Positions 3,344 through 64,000 of a DNA stretch of 64,000 bases are shown piece by piece. The translations under genes and the position numbers were made by a program. Source of the stretch: a virus; IMG/VR virus record IMGVR_UViG_3300035698_027665, positions 1 through 64,000 of that record; one strand, written 5' to 3'. Below the pieces are notes generated by a model, which was not told where the DNA came from, ran no database searches, and worked only from the letters and a program-made list of their open reading frames with translations. How positions within the stretch are numbered: the stretch's first letter is position 1; every line of letters begins with the position of its first letter.

Positions 3344-3373
3344 GATTTTATATATGGTTTTTGTTTTTTTTAA

Positions 3374-8813: not shown

Positions 8814-8847
8814 AAAAAAAAACCGCAAGTCGCTAAGACTTACGGTT
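8814..8847 (-). terminator. Intrinsic terminator in front of the tRNA array
   Basis: On the minus strand an 11-bp stem (8837-8847 with 8821-8831, one T-G wobble) with the 5-nt loop TTAGC is followed at once by nine T residues. It lies between the leader ORF and the first tRNA, so it stops transcripts from the promoter at 9030-9057 unless its 5' arm is captured by the antiterminator. Confidence 0.9.
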
Positions 8848-8935
8848 TTAAAAGCATTTTAAAATTGCTTCGTTTAGTCTATAGCGATATCTTCCATGTT
8901 ACTAAGTAACAAATAAGACGATGATAAACTAAAAC
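8821..8935 (-). promoter_or_regulatory. Attenuator of the tRNA operon (alternative RNA hairpins)
   Basis: Three mutually exclusive pairings can be drawn. 1:2 pairs leader-codon segment 8924-8935 with 8872-8882 (11 bp, one bulge). 2:3 pairs 8876-8887 with 8830-8840 (TCGCTA-T-AGACT with AGTCTTAGCGA, 11 bp and one bulged T). 3:4 is the terminator, 8837-8847 with 8821-8831. Segment 2 covers the last codons and stop of the leader ORF. By the trp/his attenuation model, a ribosome stalled on the upstream codons would mask segment 1 and let 2:3 prevent termination; a ribosome at the stop would mask segment 2 and let the terminator form. The pairings are seen directly; regulation is inferred. Confidence 0.8.
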
Positions 8936-8960
8936 TAAAAAACATGCAATTCATTTTCAT
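8874..8960 (-). CDS. Leader peptide rich in Phe, Ser, Leu, Tyr
   Basis: 28 codons from the first ATG (8958-8960) or 26 from the second (8952-8954). The second has GAGG at a 9-nt spacing and is preferred. Codons at 8901-8942 encode FFSFSLSSSYLLLS, 14 residues drawn only from Phe, Ser, Leu and Tyr: TTT three times, AGT three times, TTA twice, and TCA, TCG, TCT, TAT, TTG and CTT once each. Eight of the nine tRNAs of the operon read at least one of these codons. The ORF lies between a strong promoter and a terminator, as in amino-acid operon attenuators. A short hydrophobic peptide with another role is the alternative. No similarity to a known leader peptide is claimed. Confidence 0.8.
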   Translation of the reverse strand: MKMNCMFFSFSLSSSYLLLSNMEDIAID

Positions 8961-9029
8961 TTTCCTCAATTTAATATAGTCTTCTCAAAACTTTTTTTGA
9001 AAACTACAATTCCTTTTCTTCGCACAATC

Positions 9030-9057
9030 ATTATAACACGTTGTTGCTGATTGTAAA
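9030..9057 (-). promoter_or_regulatory. Sigma70 promoter of the tRNA operon
   Basis: Minus strand: -35 TTTACA (9052-9057), 16-nt spacer, -10 TATAAT (9030-9035). Transcription would start near 9022 and give a leader of about 210 nt to the terminator at 8814. The box is flanked by an inverted repeat (ATAACACG at 9033-9040, CGTGTTAT at 9064-9071) that could be an operator. Confidence 0.85.
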
Positions 9058-11599: not shown

Positions 11600-11620
11600 T
11601 TTTATTTGAACAGTTTCTCT

Positions 11621-12697
11621 ATGCCCAAAATTTTAGTTTTTACAGATATACATATCCATCCCCATAAGAGATCAACGGATCGCCTGCAACATTGTCTAGA
11701 TGCTCTAGATTGGGTTTTTAAAACAGCTAAAGAGCAAAAAATAGACAATATAGTTTTTCTTGGCGATTTATTTCATGATCGTCAAAAAATAGACGTGATG
11801 ACCTATCATAAAACTTTTGAAGTTTTTGAAAAACATTTATATGAAAGAGATGTAAATGTTTTTCTATTGCTAGGCAACCACGATCTATGGTATTCTCAAA
11901 AATGGGATGTATCCTCTGTCAATCCATTAAAAAACTTGCCGGGAGTGACGGTAATCAATAAGCCAACAACTTTAAATATAGCAGGCAGTGATATTAGTTT
12001 TTTACCTTATACACATGACCCAAAATCAGATTTAGAAAAAATAAAAAACGATTCTGGTTTTAAAATATTATGTGGGCATGTGGCTATTGACGGTGCTGTT
12101 TGGAATAAAATGGCAAACACCGTTGCAGAGGTTCATGTTGAACACGATGGAGATATGATTAAAGTTGATCAAAGCGTGTTTAATGGATGGGACCAAGTGT
12201 TTTTGGGACATTATCACGCTGAACAAAAATTATCATATAATGTGGAATACGTTGGGTCACCCTTGCAATTGAGCTTTGGAGAAGCTTTTCAACATAAACA
12301 CATATTGGTGTTTGATTTAGAAACACATAAAAAAGAATATATACGTAATAAATTTAGCCCGCAACATTTTATAATAAATCAAAAAGATATAGAAAAATAT
12401 GATTTAAATAACAATTTCATCAAAATACAAGTTGATGATTTAAGCGAATCCCAACTTGTTGATTTTAAAAATAAATTGCTAAATGACAATGCCCCTATTT
12501 CCATTGAAATAAAACAAAAACCTAATGATAAAAAAGAAGATCAAAAAGACATTGAAGGGGCAAGAGATATTCTTTTAAAAGAAGATGAGATGATAGAAAA
12601 ATATGTGGAAAAAAAAGAATTAGGGCAACTAGAAAAAAAGAGATTGCTTAAAATAGGTATGGATATATGTAACAACAGTCAAAATAAGGATAGTTAA
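11621..12697 (+). CDS. SbcD/Mre11-type exonuclease subunit (T4 gp47-like)
   Basis: 358 aa from ATG 11621; a TTG at 11606 is a less likely start. All metallophosphatase motifs are present in order: FTDIHIHP, GDLFHDR, LLGNHD, CGHVA and LGHYH. The C-terminal region (from about residue 240) is the capping and Rad50-binding part, ending in charged helices. With the gp46-like subunit at 13272 it should form the Mn-dependent nuclease that processes DNA ends for recombination-dependent replication and degrades host DNA. Two small genes lie between the subunits. Confidence 0.92.
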   Translation: MPKILVFTDIHIHPHKRSTDRLQHCLDALDWVFKTAKEQKIDNIVFLGDLFHDRQKIDVMTYHKTFEVFEKHLYERDVNVFLLLGNHDLWYSQKWDVSSVNPLKNLPGVTVINKPTTLNIAGSDISFLPYTHDPKSDLEKIKNDSGFKILCGHVAIDGAVWNKMANTVAEVHVEHDGDMIKVDQSVFNGWDQVFLGHYHAEQKLSYNVEYVGSPLQLSFGEAFQHKHILVFDLETHKKEYIRNKFSPQHFIINQKDIEKYDLNNNFIKIQVDDLSESQLVDFKNKLLNDNAPISIEIKQKPNDKKEDQKDIEGARDILLKEDEMIEKYVEKKELGQLEKKRLLKIGMDICNNSQNKDS

Positions 12698-15349: not shown

Positions 15350-18300
15350 ATGAGCATTGCGAAAGAGTTTCACAGTGGTATGGGTCAAGCAGTTGCCGAA
15401 AGAACCATATTAAGAAAAAAAGACAATGGCGAATTAGAAAAATGGGAAGACGTGGCAGATAGGGTAGCATTGGGAAACTCTTTATTATGCAATACAAAAG
15501 AAGAACAAGAGAGAGAATATAAACTACTAAAAAAGCATCTTTTAAAGGCAAATACTCTAATGTCGGGTCGTCATTTGCAACACGGCGATGCAGATCAACC
15601 AAAACGAAATATGGAGATTTTTACTAATTGTGCTACAGCAATTAGTGGGTTTGCGTCATTTTACTTATTAATGAACGGAAGTGGCGTTGGTCGGTGTTAT
15701 GACGATGACATTATGCTTGTTAATTGGGATTACGCCCCTGTTATTCGGTGTGTAATAGATGAAAACCATCCAGATTTCGATTTTTCCGCTCATGAATCCG
15801 TGCGTGACGCTAAGCATAAATATGTTGGTGGAAAAGACATTCTTTGGCATCGAGTAGAAGATACAAGAGAGGGATGGAGCAAAGCTTTAGAAGTTTGGGA
15901 AAACGCAGCTTTTCAAAAAATACATACTCACAAAATGCTCATATTGGATTTTTCTGGCGTAAGAGCTAAAGGATCGCCGATTAAAGGGATGCAGAACAGA
16001 CCCGCTAGTGGGCCAGTCCCTTTAATGAATGCTTTCAATAAAACACTTGCCTTAAAAGGTGCGGGAATGCCACGCTGGAAACAAGCAATGTATGCAGACC
16101 ATTATTTTGCTGAATGCGTATTAGTTGGAGGCGCACGTCGAGCAGCTAGAATGTCTGTTAAAAATTGGCGAGACACATCAGTATTAGATTTCATTGCTGT
16201 AAAACGTCCTATAGAATATTATGGTAAAAAAGTGGATGAAGTTGTGGATATTAGATTGAATTCTGAACTTCATCCACAAGGTTTTTTGTGGTCTTCAAAT
16301 AATAGCATTACGGTTGATAAAGAATTTTGGGAGCGTGCAAATGCTGGACGTAACGATCCTTTGTTCAAAGAAGAATTGACCAAACACGCCAAGCGTGTTT
16401 TTAAAGCTGCTACATCTGCTTCTTATGCTGATGGTACTGGTGAACCGGGTTTTATAAATGAGGACAAGTTAGTAAAAAACAAGTCGGGTATTTCTGATTT
16501 GGTTAAAAACAATGAATACTTCGGCAGCGATAAATATCAGTTAGAAGAAGATACAGAAATATACATGAGCCGCCTTCTTAAAAAGGCTTCCAAAAAGCTT
16601 AATTTTATGATTGTCAACCCATGTGTGACAAAAGATACATGGGTCATGACTAATTTAGGACCAAGACAAGTATTTGAATTAATTGGCCATGACTACACTG
16701 CTGTTGTGGACGGCAAAGAATATAAAGCAAAAGGATTCTGGAAGACTGGTGATAAACGAGTTTTCAAAATGAAAACGAACAGGGGGTATGAACTAAAACT
16801 AACAGAAAATCATAAAATTTTGGTAGAAACCAGTAGAAAACAAAAATTTAATGGTGGCTATAACGTCAAGCAAGAATGGAAAGAATTAAAAGACATTAAA
16901 ATTGGTGATAAAATAGTATTAAACAATCATGATAATTATTCTTGGGAAGGTTGTGGTGGTACATTTGAAGAAGGCTGGTTGCTTGGCGAAATGGTAGGTG
17001 ATGGCGGTCATAATCCAGAAAAATATCCGAGTTATGTTAGATTTTGGAATGAAGATGAAGATGTTCAAAAAATGGCAGGAATAGCAGTAGAATATTTAGA
17101 AAATATTGGCGTTGGTCCACAATTCAAAAGCGAAAAAAGCGATACAAATGGAATTGTCACCGTATCCACTAAAACACTAAATAGGCTTACTTCTAATTTA
17201 ATAGAAGAAAAAAGTAAAAATCTATTGCCGAAAATTGAACAAATGAGCAAAGATTTTTATTGCGGGTTTATTAGAGGTCTTTTTGATGCTGATGGTACTG
17301 TTTTGCTACAAAAAGAAAAAGGGCGTAGCGTTAGACTGTCTCAAAACAACATCGAAAGATTAAAAACGATTCAAAGAATGTTGTTGCGATTGGGTATTGC
17401 TACTACAATTTATAAAGACAGAACTACAGAGTCAGGAAAATGTCTACCTGATGGAAAAGGTTCGCAAAAACTATATTTTTGTAAAGCCACTCACGAATTG
17501 GCAATATCGAAAGACAATATTAATAAATTCGAAAAAACAATAGGTTTTCATAGCGATAACAAAAATAAAAAATTAATTGGTTGCATCGAATCTATTACTA
17601 GAGGAGCTTACAAAGAAAGATTTACTGCTACTGTATCTTCAATTGAATTTGTTGGCGTAGAAGATGTATACGACACTACTGTAGAAAAAGTCCATGCTTT
17701 TGATGCAAATGGAATAAAAGCACATAATTGTGGTGAAATTGTAATAGCATTATGGGGTGCTTTTTGCACTATTGCGGATTTAGTACCTTTTCACAGCGAG
17801 AATATTTCCGACTTTGAAGAATGTGCTAGGACCATTACGAGAGGGCTGATTCGTGTAAACACTATGGATTCTATTTACAATAAAGAAGTAAAAAGAACTA
17901 ATAGAATAGGTATAGGACTTACAGGCGTTCACGAATATGCATGGAATGCATTTGGGTTGACGTTTAAAGATTTGTTAAATGAAGAAAAATCTAAAGATTT
18001 TTGGATGTCTTTGTCAAGAGTGAAAAGAGCAATTGTAGAAGAATCCGAAACGTATTCTAAAAAATTAGGAGTGGTTACTCCACATACTAATACTACAGTA
18101 AAACCTAGTGGAACGGTTTCAAAATTATTTGGACTTACAGAAGGATGGCATCTTCCCGCAATGAAATGGTATTTAAGATGGGTGCAGTTTAGAGTCGGCG
18201 ATCCTATCGTTGATGAATATGAAAAAAAGGGATATCCAACAAGGCATTTGAAGCAATATAACAATACTGTTATTGTGGGCTTCCCTACTGTTCCTATTAT

Positions 18301-18709
18301 CTGCAATCTAGGCATGCCAACAATAACAACTGCTGCGGAAGCAACTCCTGAAGAACAATACAAATGGCTCATGCTTGGCGAAAAATATTGGATTAGAGGG
18401 GTGGATGAAAATGGCGTTCCTCTAGAAGAAGATACAGGAAATCAAATTAGCTATACTTTAAAATATGATCCTGAAAAGGTTGATTATCAGGGCTTTTCAA
18501 AAACGCTAAAACAATATCAATCACAAATTAAAGCTTGTTCTATCATGCCTCAAGAAAAACAAAGCTCATATGAATACGTTCCAGAAGAACCAGTTACAAA
18601 AGCAGAATATGAAGATTATTGTAGAAAAATAGAGTTCATAAAAGAAGATGTAGATCGTGAACATGTAGATTGTGAAAGCGGAGCTTGTCCTATTGATTTC
18701 AATAAGTAA
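15350..18709 (+). CDS. nrdJ: Adenosylcobalamin-dependent (class II) ribonucleotide reductase with intein
   Basis: 1119 aa precursor; after removal of a 369-aa intein (residues 425-793) the enzyme is 750 aa, close to monomeric class II ribonucleoside-triphosphate reductases. Seen motifs: NCATAISGF with the first active-site Cys, NGSGVGR, and the split NPC-GE loop that carries the radical Cys and the Glu. PSGTVSKLFG and the C-terminal redox pair CESGACPID are also present. It makes dNTPs from NTPs with coenzyme B12, so no R2 subunit or oxygen is needed. AGGAAGG lies upstream of the start. The host must supply cobalamin. Confidence 0.93.
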   Translation: MSIAKEFHSGMGQAVAERTILRKKDNGELEKWEDVADRVALGNSLLCNTKEEQEREYKLLKKHLLKANTLMSGRHLQHGDADQPKRNMEIFTNCATAISGFASFYLLMNGSGVGRCYDDDIMLVNWDYAPVIRCVIDENHPDFDFSAHESVRDAKHKYVGGKDILWHRVEDTREGWSKALEVWENAAFQKIHTHKMLILDFSGVRAKGSPIKGMQNRPASGPVPLMNAFNKTLALKGAGMPRWKQAMYADHYFAECVLVGGARRAARMSVKNWRDTSVLDFIAVKRPIEYYGKKVDEVVDIRLNSELHPQGFLWSSNNSITVDKEFWERANAGRNDPLFKEELTKHAKRVFKAATSASYADGTGEPGFINEDKLVKNKSGISDLVKNNEYFGSDKYQLEEDTEIYMSRLLKKASKKLNFMIVNPCVTKDTWVMTNLGPRQVFELIGHDYTAVVDGKEYKAKGFWKTGDKRVFKMKTNRGYELKLTENHKILVETSRKQKFNGGYNVKQEWKELKDIKIGDKIVLNNHDNYSWEGCGGTFEEGWLLGEMVGDGGHNPEKYPSYVRFWNEDEDVQKMAGIAVEYLENIGVGPQFKSEKSDTNGIVTVSTKTLNRLTSNLIEEKSKNLLPKIEQMSKDFYCGFIRGLFDADGTVLLQKEKGRSVRLSQNNIERLKTIQRMLLRLGIATTIYKDRTTESGKCLPDGKGSQKLYFCKATHELAISKDNINKFEKTIGFHSDNKNKKLIGCIESITRGAYKERFTATVSSIEFVGVEDVYDTTVEKVHAFDANGIKAHNCGEIVIALWGAFCTIADLVPFHSENISDFEECARTITRGLIRVNTMDSIYNKEVKRTNRIGIGLTGVHEYAWNAFGLTFKDLLNEEKSKDFWMSLSRVKRAIVEESETYSKKLGVVTPHTNTTVKPSGTVSKLFGLTEGWHLPAMKWYLRWVQFRVGDPIVDEYEKKGYPTRHLKQYNNTVIVGFPTVPIICNLGMPTITTAAEATPEEQYKWLMLGEKYWIRGVDENGVPLEEDTGNQISYTLKYDPEKVDYQGFSKTLKQYQSQIKACSIMPQEKQSSYEYVPEEPVTKAEYEDYCRKIEFIKEDVDREHVDCESGACPIDFNK
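16622..17728 (+). mobile_element. Intein with LAGLIDADG endonuclease, inserted in the NPCGE active-site loop
   Basis: 369 aa starting Cys425 (CVTKDTWVM, block A) and ending AHN, with Cys794 as the +1 extein residue. This Cys+1 is the catalytic Cys of NPCGE, so the enzyme works only after splicing. It has two LAGLIDADG helices, WLLGEMVGDGG (about 542) and GFIRGLFDADG (about 640), and C-terminal Hint blocks (VYDTTVEKVHAFDANG). It looks intact for splicing and homing. Confidence 0.93.
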
Positions 18710-63163: not shown

Positions 63164-64000
63164 ATGAAAGTGATTCGGGGTTACAAAACTGAATTAAAAC
63201 CAAATAACAAACAACGTTCTGCACTACTGCAACACGCAGGAACAGCCCGTTATGTCTGGAATTGGGCATTAAATAGGATTGAGAGCAAAGTCTCTAAACC
63301 AAACGCTATCCAACTTCATAAAGAATGGAACGTATGGAAAAGAGATAATGCTGTCTGGTACAAAGAAGTGTCAAAATGCTCGCCTCAAGAAAGTTTAAGA
63401 AACCTAGAAAATGCTTTCAAACACTTTTTTAGAAAGTGTAAAGATAAGAAGAAAGGAAAGTTTAAAGGAAAAGCAGGTTTCCCAAGATATAAGAATAAAC
63501 ATAAAGGCATTGGTTCAAGTAGATTTACAGGAACAATAAAAGTTGCAGAAAATACTATTCAACTTCCAAGACTAGGAAAGTTAAGATTAAAAGAAAACAG
63601 TTATTTGCCAATTAATGCCAAGATACTGTCTTTGACAATAAGCGAAAAAGCAGGAAAATGGTTTGTGTCGATTCAAGTTGAGGAAAATATTCCAGAGCCA
63701 AAGGCTAAGAAAGAAAATGTAGTTGGAATTGATTTAGGAATTAAAACATTAGCGGTTTGTAGCGATGGAAAAGAATATCAAAACCCCAAAGCATTAAAAA
63801 CTAGACTCAGAAAATTAAAGATGCTACAATGTTCAGCTAGTAAAAAAGTCAAAGGTTCTCAAAATAGGAAGAAAGCAAATCGTAAAGTAGCGAGATTGCA
63901 TTATAAGATAGGAAACATTAGGAAAGATACATTACATAAAATCACTACAGAATTGACGAAAACCAAGTCAATTGTTGTGATTGAAGATTTATGTGTATCT
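63164..64000 (+). CDS. tnpB: TnpB (IS200/IS605-family RNA-guided nuclease), 3' end outside window
   Basis: 279 residues visible. The OrfB_IS605 N-terminus (YKTELKPNNKQRSALLQHAGTARYVWNWAL) leads to the RuvC-like core: GIDLGIKTLAVCSDG with Asp190 and VVIEDL with Glu274; the third Asp and the zinc finger lie beyond the edge. TnpB is an RNA-guided DNA endonuclease whose guide (omegaRNA) comes from the 3' end of its own gene, not visible here. No TnpA transposase lies upstream, so it is a stand-alone or partial element. Confidence 0.92.
   Translation, partial: MKVIRGYKTELKPNNKQRSALLQHAGTARYVWNWALNRIESKVSKPNAIQLHKEWNVWKRDNAVWYKEVSKCSPQESLRNLENAFKHFFRKCKDKKKGKFKGKAGFPRYKNKHKGIGSSRFTGTIKVAENTIQLPRLGKLRLKENSYLPINAKILSLTISEKAGKWFVSIQVEENIPEPKAKKENVVGIDLGIKTLAVCSDGKEYQNPKALKTRLRKLKMLQCSASKKVKGSQNRKKANRKVARLHYKIGNIRKDTLHKITTELTKTKSIVVIEDLCVS

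Follow-up and report, generated by a model that had tools for sequence, protein, structure and literature searches.

What governs a phage tRNA operon whose promoter is followed by a short ORF spelled in the codons that the operon's own tRNAs read? The question bears on a debate of several decades, namely whether phage tRNAs compensate for codon usage or replace tRNAs destroyed by the host. The locus lies in a stretch of 64 kb (hereinafter the window; 33% G+C) of a 99,353-base virus record, the source of which is a jumbo myovirus encoding a T4-type tail sheath.

A leader ORF ahead of nine tRNA genes

The operon occupies the minus strand and comprises nine tRNA genes, all for Phe, Ser, Leu or Tyr as a preliminary description of the locus had stated, with five Leu and Ser genes distributed among small genes down to position 3373. 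No further tRNAs were found in the rest of the 99,353-base record. The features of the locus are as follows:

11606-12697, plus strand: SbcD/gp47-like metallophosphoesterase, divergent neighbor (alignment; PF00149 on a relative)
9853-9068, minus strand: von Willebrand gene, directly 5′ of the leader promoter
9057-9030, minus strand: sigma-70-type promoter, TTTACA-16-TATAAT with TG before the -10 (consensus scan, 11/12)
8960-8874, minus strand: leader ORF of 28 codons, MKMNCMFFSFSLSSSYLLLSNMEDIAID; GAGG at 8964-8967, 3 nt before the ATG (sequence; 22 further class A leaders)
8942-8901, minus strand: control codons TTT TTT AGT TTT AGT TTA TCA TCG TCT TAT TTG TTA CTT AGT (sequence)
8932-8924, minus strand: segment 1, the protector arm, pairing with 8874-8882 (MFE and centroid)
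8911-8897, minus strand: apical hairpin of the 1:2 structure, TGTTAC-TTA-GTAACA (MFE; same place across class A)
8887-8874, minus strand: segment 2, of which 8874-8882 pairs with segment 1 and 8876-8887 with the terminator loop region 8830-8840 (duplex energy, partner swap)
8849-8819, minus strand: intrinsic terminator (segments 3 and 4), 13 pairs and a T-tract
8773-8700, minus strand: tRNA-Phe (GAA) (ARAGORN, Rfam RF00005)
8685-8598, minus strand: tRNA-Ser (UGA) (ARAGORN)
8589-8506, minus strand: tRNA-Leu (UAA) (ARAGORN, Rfam RF00005)
8501-8418, minus strand: tRNA-Tyr (GUA) (ARAGORN)
8387-7080, minus strand: RNA ligase, PF09414 with a PHA02142 OB-fold, co-oriented and right after the first four tRNAs (Pfam; phage RNA ligase relatives)
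6600-6512, minus strand: tRNA-Ser (GCU) (ARAGORN, Rfam)
5979-5897, minus strand: tRNA-Leu (GAG) (ARAGORN, Rfam)
5446-5362, minus strand: tRNA-Leu (UAG) (ARAGORN, Rfam)
5053-4967, minus strand: tRNA-Ser (GGA) (ARAGORN)
3458-3373, minus strand: tRNA-Leu (CAA) (ARAGORN, Rfam)

The preliminary description had read this arrangement as a leader-peptide attenuator. Its promoter, its leader of 26-28 codons with an upstream GAGG and its intrinsic terminator ahead of the tRNAs were all recovered here, and eight of the nine tRNAs do read a leader codon under strict wobble. The control run consists of 14 consecutive Phe/Ser/Leu/Tyr codons, and a consensus scan returned no promoter-like site of at least 9/12 between the terminator and the first four tRNAs. 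In naked RNA the Shine-Dalgarno and start region (8932-8971, minus strand) can pair with the first Phe codons, which might gate leader translation. Elsewhere in the window, a ribonucleotide reductase-like ORF (15350-18709) carries what by eye is an intein-like insert (CVTKDTWVMTNLG...), and an ORF at 63164-64000 (extending to 64390 in the record) resembles, again by eye, TnpB/OrfB transposon proteins (MKVIRGYKTELKPNNKQRSALLQHAG...).

Equivalent leaders in related phages

A scan with the tail sheath yielded 80 related IMG/VR contigs. Those with tRNAs fall into two kinds, one with a few other tRNAs (Met, Arg, Lys, Glu, etc.) and one with arrays exclusively of Leu, Ser, Phe and Tyr, and every array of the latter kind has just upstream of it a short ORF with 13-16 consecutive F/S/L/Y codons. 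Further loci came from a scan with EF-Tu and from one with the divergent neighbor gp47/SbcD, a conserved synteny marker beside the leader in many relatives. Among 80 gp47/SbcD loci, the leader is present in all 19 with a Leu/Ser/Phe/Tyr array, and the remaining 61 have neither array nor leader. Altogether, we count 23 such leaders including that of the window (hereinafter class A), which reduce to 17 families after grouping of near relatives. They occur in both AT-rich and GC-rich phages and diverge in sequence under a constant layout, in which a short leader ORF with clustered control codons stands upstream of an intrinsic terminator and a Leu/Ser/Phe/Tyr-only operon. The class A spacing from stop codon to terminator is 15-34 nt; Shine-Dalgarno matches are weak in some leaders. 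The terminator search admitted large loops and broken T-tracts, and one terminator outside class A (G089C) was placed by hand. As evidence that would count against it, the preliminary description had named tRNA-bearing relatives in which the leader codons are unrelated or the alternative pairing is absent. The opposite was found: the other 22 keep both the F/S/L/Y codons and the layout of 1:2, 2:3 and 3:4 pairings while differing in sequence, which supports the attenuator interpretation.

The same description had worried that a T-rich stretch favors such codons by chance, and the relatives settle the point. A combined pattern of at least nine F/S/L/Y codons in a run and a strong terminator 8-42 nt past the stop matched 44 times in 2.93 Mb of phage DNA (the loci partly overlap); all 44 matches lie ahead of a Leu/Ser/Phe/Tyr array, and none was found away from tRNA arrays in that DNA.

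Close relatives of the window itself were not found in IMG/VR with its RNA ligase as query, and its von Willebrand neighbor retrieved two sequences that lack tRNAs in the vicinity, a frame-broken contig and the 595-kb phage LR756511. DNA and protein searches of cultured phages returned no isolate carrying the window's locus. Nor is a codon-matched leader universal among tRNA-rich phages, since none was found within 10 kb of EF-Tu in EF-Tu-bearing phages with mixed tRNA arrays (L111-L129). In one phage (G063), the second array starts at the contig end, with its upstream side outside the contig.

EF-Tu genes are common in the Leu/Ser/Phe/Tyr operons of relatives. Phage EF-Tu lies inside the tRNA operons of most of them (L086 5910-7082, L089 8202-9398, L090 3375-4541, L101 9992-11173, L105 9887-11179 and others). 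Most EF-Tu matches from the phage collection are tuf genes of the bacterial type, with ~60% identity. The bacterial EF-Tu closest to the phage versions is mostly from Planctomycetota (~66-70% as against ~60% elsewhere), a likeness that hints at Planctomycetota as possible hosts. The tRNA operon of a 533-kb phage also codes for a homolog of ClpS, the N-end-rule adaptor (L101 7447-7845), and one phage region that combines 42 tRNA genes with EF-Tu and a tmRNA (L114 18246-18598; tag ANDNSTALPALLAA) showed no codon-matched leader in the scan.

Leader codons follow the tRNAs of each operon

The control codons are cognate to the operon's tRNAs, and three codon classes track three kinds of array. The strongest evidence that codons follow tRNAs lies in arrays that supply other tRNAs, the leaders of which change their codons in step with the tRNA set (L102, L144, L145, L241, L242). 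The L102 array, for example, supplies Lys, Glu, Gly, Gln, Pro, Asn, Asp, Trp, Ala and other tRNAs but none for Leu, Ser, Phe or Tyr; its leader, MFVVNHKPGKQMQAQAVRVCTGITVNGPAAAWCERPQGNDKTKTP, uses each of the remaining 16 amino acids and, of Leu, Ser, Phe and Tyr, contains just one Phe. Two class A phages, with records of 436 kb (G065) and 527 kb (G089), each carry two further tRNA operons, the leaders of which spell other amino acids matching their own arrays; the partition of tRNAs among the three operons differs between the two:

G065, MHALLSYSLSSLSSLFSEPGETAAVA: before Leu/Ser/Phe/Tyr
G065, MAVLIQRHGKQWCRCHKQWNNQITYLMS: before Asn, Lys, Ile, His, Gln, Arg, Cys
G065, MLTCRFTFVERTAGTTEAVAPAAVRPEGMSAVDTTV: before Met, Pro, Gly, Asp, Thr, Glu, Val, Ala
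G089, MGIFSSSLSFLFLSLYLSDRWRCA: before Phe/Tyr/Ser/Leu
G089, MLVSVQKNQVCWQGITCPCATITPKQGETNGRTGHEDNAPAP: before Glu, Gly, Trp, Pro, Ile, His, Cys, Lys, Asn, Gln, Thr, Asp, Ala
G089, MTIIQAQERRAIAAVRRAMAVRAMQVAT: before Arg, Val, Gln, Ala, Gly, Glu, Met

The match of each leader to its own array is 0.56/0.59/0.83 in G065 and 0.65/0.85/0.81 in G089, with swapped pairs mostly far lower. Within class A, the share of tRNA genes correlates with the share of codons (Spearman 0.63); one phage with no Leu tRNA in its visible array (G086) has a single Leu codon in its leader.

In operons of class B/BC, the leader is preceded by one or two tRNA-Met genes (L102 6442-6590, L144 3135-3209, L241 reverse 4522), which would thereby escape its control. 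The multi-operon phages also have putative suppressor tRNAs reading UAA/UAG (L241 reverse 5076 and 5151, L143 1894-2041, L147 743-820), one pair of which is directly 5′ of a leader.

The coupling extends below the level of the amino acid. Of the 275 anticodons encoded, 267 find a codon to read in the leader of their own operon under strict wobble, as compared to 236.5 ± 5.1 or 235.4 ± 5.2 on random synonymous recoding of the same peptides with uniform or local codon usage, respectively (0/2000 reach 267). A reduced, less redundant set behaves likewise (217/225 versus 192.6 ± 4.8). Most of the effect is carried by class A alone (136/138 versus 117.2 ± 3.7), being weaker in the five class B/C leaders taken alone (81/87 versus 75.3 ± 2.8, with 77/3000 recodings as high). 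Distinct codons are also raised overall (357 versus 333 ± 6 expected), and repeat avoidance could be partly behind this diversity. Since anticodon coverage exceeds synonymous chance, which sensing of amino acids alone would not need, the pattern points to leaders that sense individual tRNAs.

Alternative pairings of the leader RNA

In the naked RNA, class A leaders form a 1:2 hairpin that reaches from the codon run to the stop codon and carries an apical hairpin where the run ends; the terminator follows. By MFE, the position of the apical hairpin is constant across leaders of different sequence. In the window, the protector pairing of the preliminary description recurs in both MFE and centroid as 8924-8932 with 8874-8882, and its antiterminator (8876-8887 with 8830-8840; 11 pairs with one bulge) is the best 2:3 duplex at -16.5 kcal/mol. 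Taken alone, the window gives modest values against dinucleotide shuffles, with z -2.0 for 1:2, -2.4 for 2:3 and -3.2 for the whole leader region, which folds better than 198 of 200 shuffles. Across the 23 leaders the corresponding Stouffer z is -16.6 for the 1:2 structure and -6.9 for the 2:3 duplex; with the set reduced to 18 leaders, the values are -14.8 and -6.4.

Because composition could mimic the shuffle result, we also swapped partners between unrelated leaders. Own partners of the 2:3 duplex reach -21.2 kcal/mol against -15.9 when swapped (p 6e-6, 23 leaders), and those of 1:2 reach -28.9 against -19.6 (p 4.8e-7, or 3e-5 with one leader per family). Hence, own-partner pairing is retained between segments whose sequences differ from leader to leader. 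Across the set there are thereby mutually exclusive 1:2, 2:3 and 3:4 helices with co-variation, weakly so in some single leaders, with 2:3 pairing no better than shuffles in G066, G065A, G085 and G068.

When a ribosome was modeled codon by codon in 28 leaders, the antiterminator pairing persisted with the A site in the control run and gave way close to the end of that run (median +1 codon). For QRHGKQWCRCHKQWNNQIT-YLMS, a leader of G065, the modeled switch falls at the end of the matching codons. As loss of pairing with the ribosome at the stop codon is partly built into this model, the case rests on the shuffle and swap tests; these and the codon test are not fully independent, the leaders being related by descent. 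Given strong terminators and a full-length MFE in the terminated form, the switch must be kinetic.

Proposed mechanism and its trigger

From the leader, the terminator, the alternative pairings, their conservation and the co-variation of codons and tRNAs present in these sequences, we infer translation of the leader, ribosome stalling and readthrough. We consider it highly probable that the element is a ribosome-mediated transcription attenuator of the trp/his type, one that responds to a shortage of the tRNAs under its control by turning on their replacement. RNA polymerase would start just downstream of 9030 and a ribosome would start the leader. With all nine tRNAs available and charged, the ribosome would reach the stop codon and cover segment 2, letting the terminator form and keeping the operon off; were the leader untranslated, segment 1 would pair with segment 2 and the terminator would form as well. 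If any one tRNA were short, the ribosome would stall in the run and cover segment 1, leaving segment 2 free to take the terminator loop region as its partner, with readthrough into the tRNAs, the RNA ligase and the rest. The new tRNA would relieve the stall. Such a loop would be autogenous, as its product is the same tRNA whose lack stalls the ribosome, and would sense tRNA shortage. A promoter-proximal sensor reading the codons of its own tRNAs, and resolving single isoacceptors, would imply that the phage wants its tRNAs when those are missing.

The most likely natural trigger is a loss of host tRNAs in the course of infection, such as tRNA-cleaving immunity would cause, a demand-driven shortage being equally possible. 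The latter, a rival to the trigger alone, takes the everyday cause to be translational demand, through a host pool mismatched to phage codons or late decay of host tRNAs, rather than defense, and we put its chances at somewhat under even. The mechanism is blind to the cause of a shortage, and the supply of whole tRNA sets along with EF-Tu fits a general takeover of translation; however, the RNA ligase in the window's operon and the published action of phage tRNAs against tRNA-cleaving immunity (PMC11555353, PMC13096335, PMC10264068) favor a defense trigger, neither being decisive. At the scale of the genome, a near-complete complement in one to three operons, with codons sampling about every isoacceptor, may amount to tRNA surveillance, in which any single loss (e.g., through tRNA-cleaving immunity) would call up the exact replacement set together with EF-Tu or RNA ligase. 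We hold this view, of a self-limiting inducible counter-defense, to be evenly balanced between right and wrong.

Alternatively, the same attenuator might sense host starvation for Leu, Ser, Phe or Tyr and not tRNA loss. To our knowledge, all known trp/his/leu-type leaders sense amino-acid starvation, and an uncharged tRNA stalls the ribosome just as an absent one does. Yet an output of tRNAs cannot cure a missing amino acid, the codons sample nearly every encoded isoacceptor above synonymous chance, and as many as 16 amino acids are represented in leaders of other operons (L102), which together make this reading improbable.

It is more doubtful still that the ORF encodes a functional hydrophobic micropeptide, with the terminator merely insulating the operon. 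Class A peptides are indeed rich in Leu, Phe, Ser and Tyr, but their order and C-terminus are not conserved, leaders of sister operons differ greatly in chemistry (QRHGKQWCRCHKQWNNQIT, QAQERRAIAAVRRAMAVRAMQVAT), and a micropeptide would account neither for the coupling to tRNA identity nor for the alternative pairings. A chance conjunction of a T-rich strand with the terminator of the upstream gene, to which the AT-richness of the window and its own 2:3 z of only -2.4 lend some color, has a negligible probability in light of the 44/44 matches at tRNA arrays, GC-rich relatives included, and of the partner-swap tests that contradict it.

On the tRNA-depletion attenuator, the leaders predict which tRNAs run short in hosts, with Leu, Ser and Tyr plus Phe forming one regulon. 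Leu, Ser and Tyr tRNAs are those of bacteria with a long variable arm, which may be the reason for their common regulon; Phe does not fit. The leaders would also be natural multi-input sensors of tRNA depletion, transferable to reporters.

Comparison with known systems

T-box riboswitches likewise sense tRNA status and control terminators, but they bind uncharged tRNA directly and have no leader ORF; Rfam gave no T-box covariance match in the window. The Rfam His, Leu, Thr, Trp and Phe leader families gave no match at gathering score either, the best being Phe_leader at 14.1 bits against a cut-off of 55, which is at chance level. In the pheM-pheST attenuator of E. coli, a codon-specific leader controls phenylalanyl-tRNA synthetase. 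It resembles the phage leaders in governing part of the tRNA-charging machinery, and differs in that it reads one amino acid and its product is a synthetase rather than tRNAs.

Phage tRNAs are known to overcome tRNA-targeting immunity, with tRNA-Tyr of T5 and SP15 acting against retron-Eco7 and that of T6 against Septu (PMC11555353, PMC13096335, PMC10264068). These too replace host tRNAs lost in infection, but they are described as coming from strong promoters or amplified genes, and no account of codon-sensing control was found for them. The searched literature, which is thin on subscription papers and preprints, holds no description of phage tRNA operons under codon-matched attenuators.

The closest architecture is that of the trp, his, leu, thr and ilvGMEDA attenuators of the E. 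coli type, with which the phage leaders share the promoter, the short leader with clustered control codons, the 1:2/2:3/3:4 helices and the terminator before the first gene. The ilvGMEDA and thr leaders are multivalent. The phage elements are not amino-acid biosynthetic attenuators in the narrow sense, as downstream of them lie tRNAs, RNA ligase, methyltransferase and, in relatives, EF-Tu; the genes behind them are tRNAs, with EF-Tu or RNA ligase in addition, in place of biosynthetic genes. They further differ in covering 4 to 16 amino acids each and nearly every encoded isoacceptor, in being phage-borne with several leaders of differing codon sets per genome, and in an antiterminator that often pairs with the terminator loop. 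Thus, the principle of attenuation is known, and as far as the searched literature shows, its use on tRNA operons with leaders spelled from their own tRNAs, in several regulons per phage, is new and would extend attenuation from metabolism to the decoding machinery.
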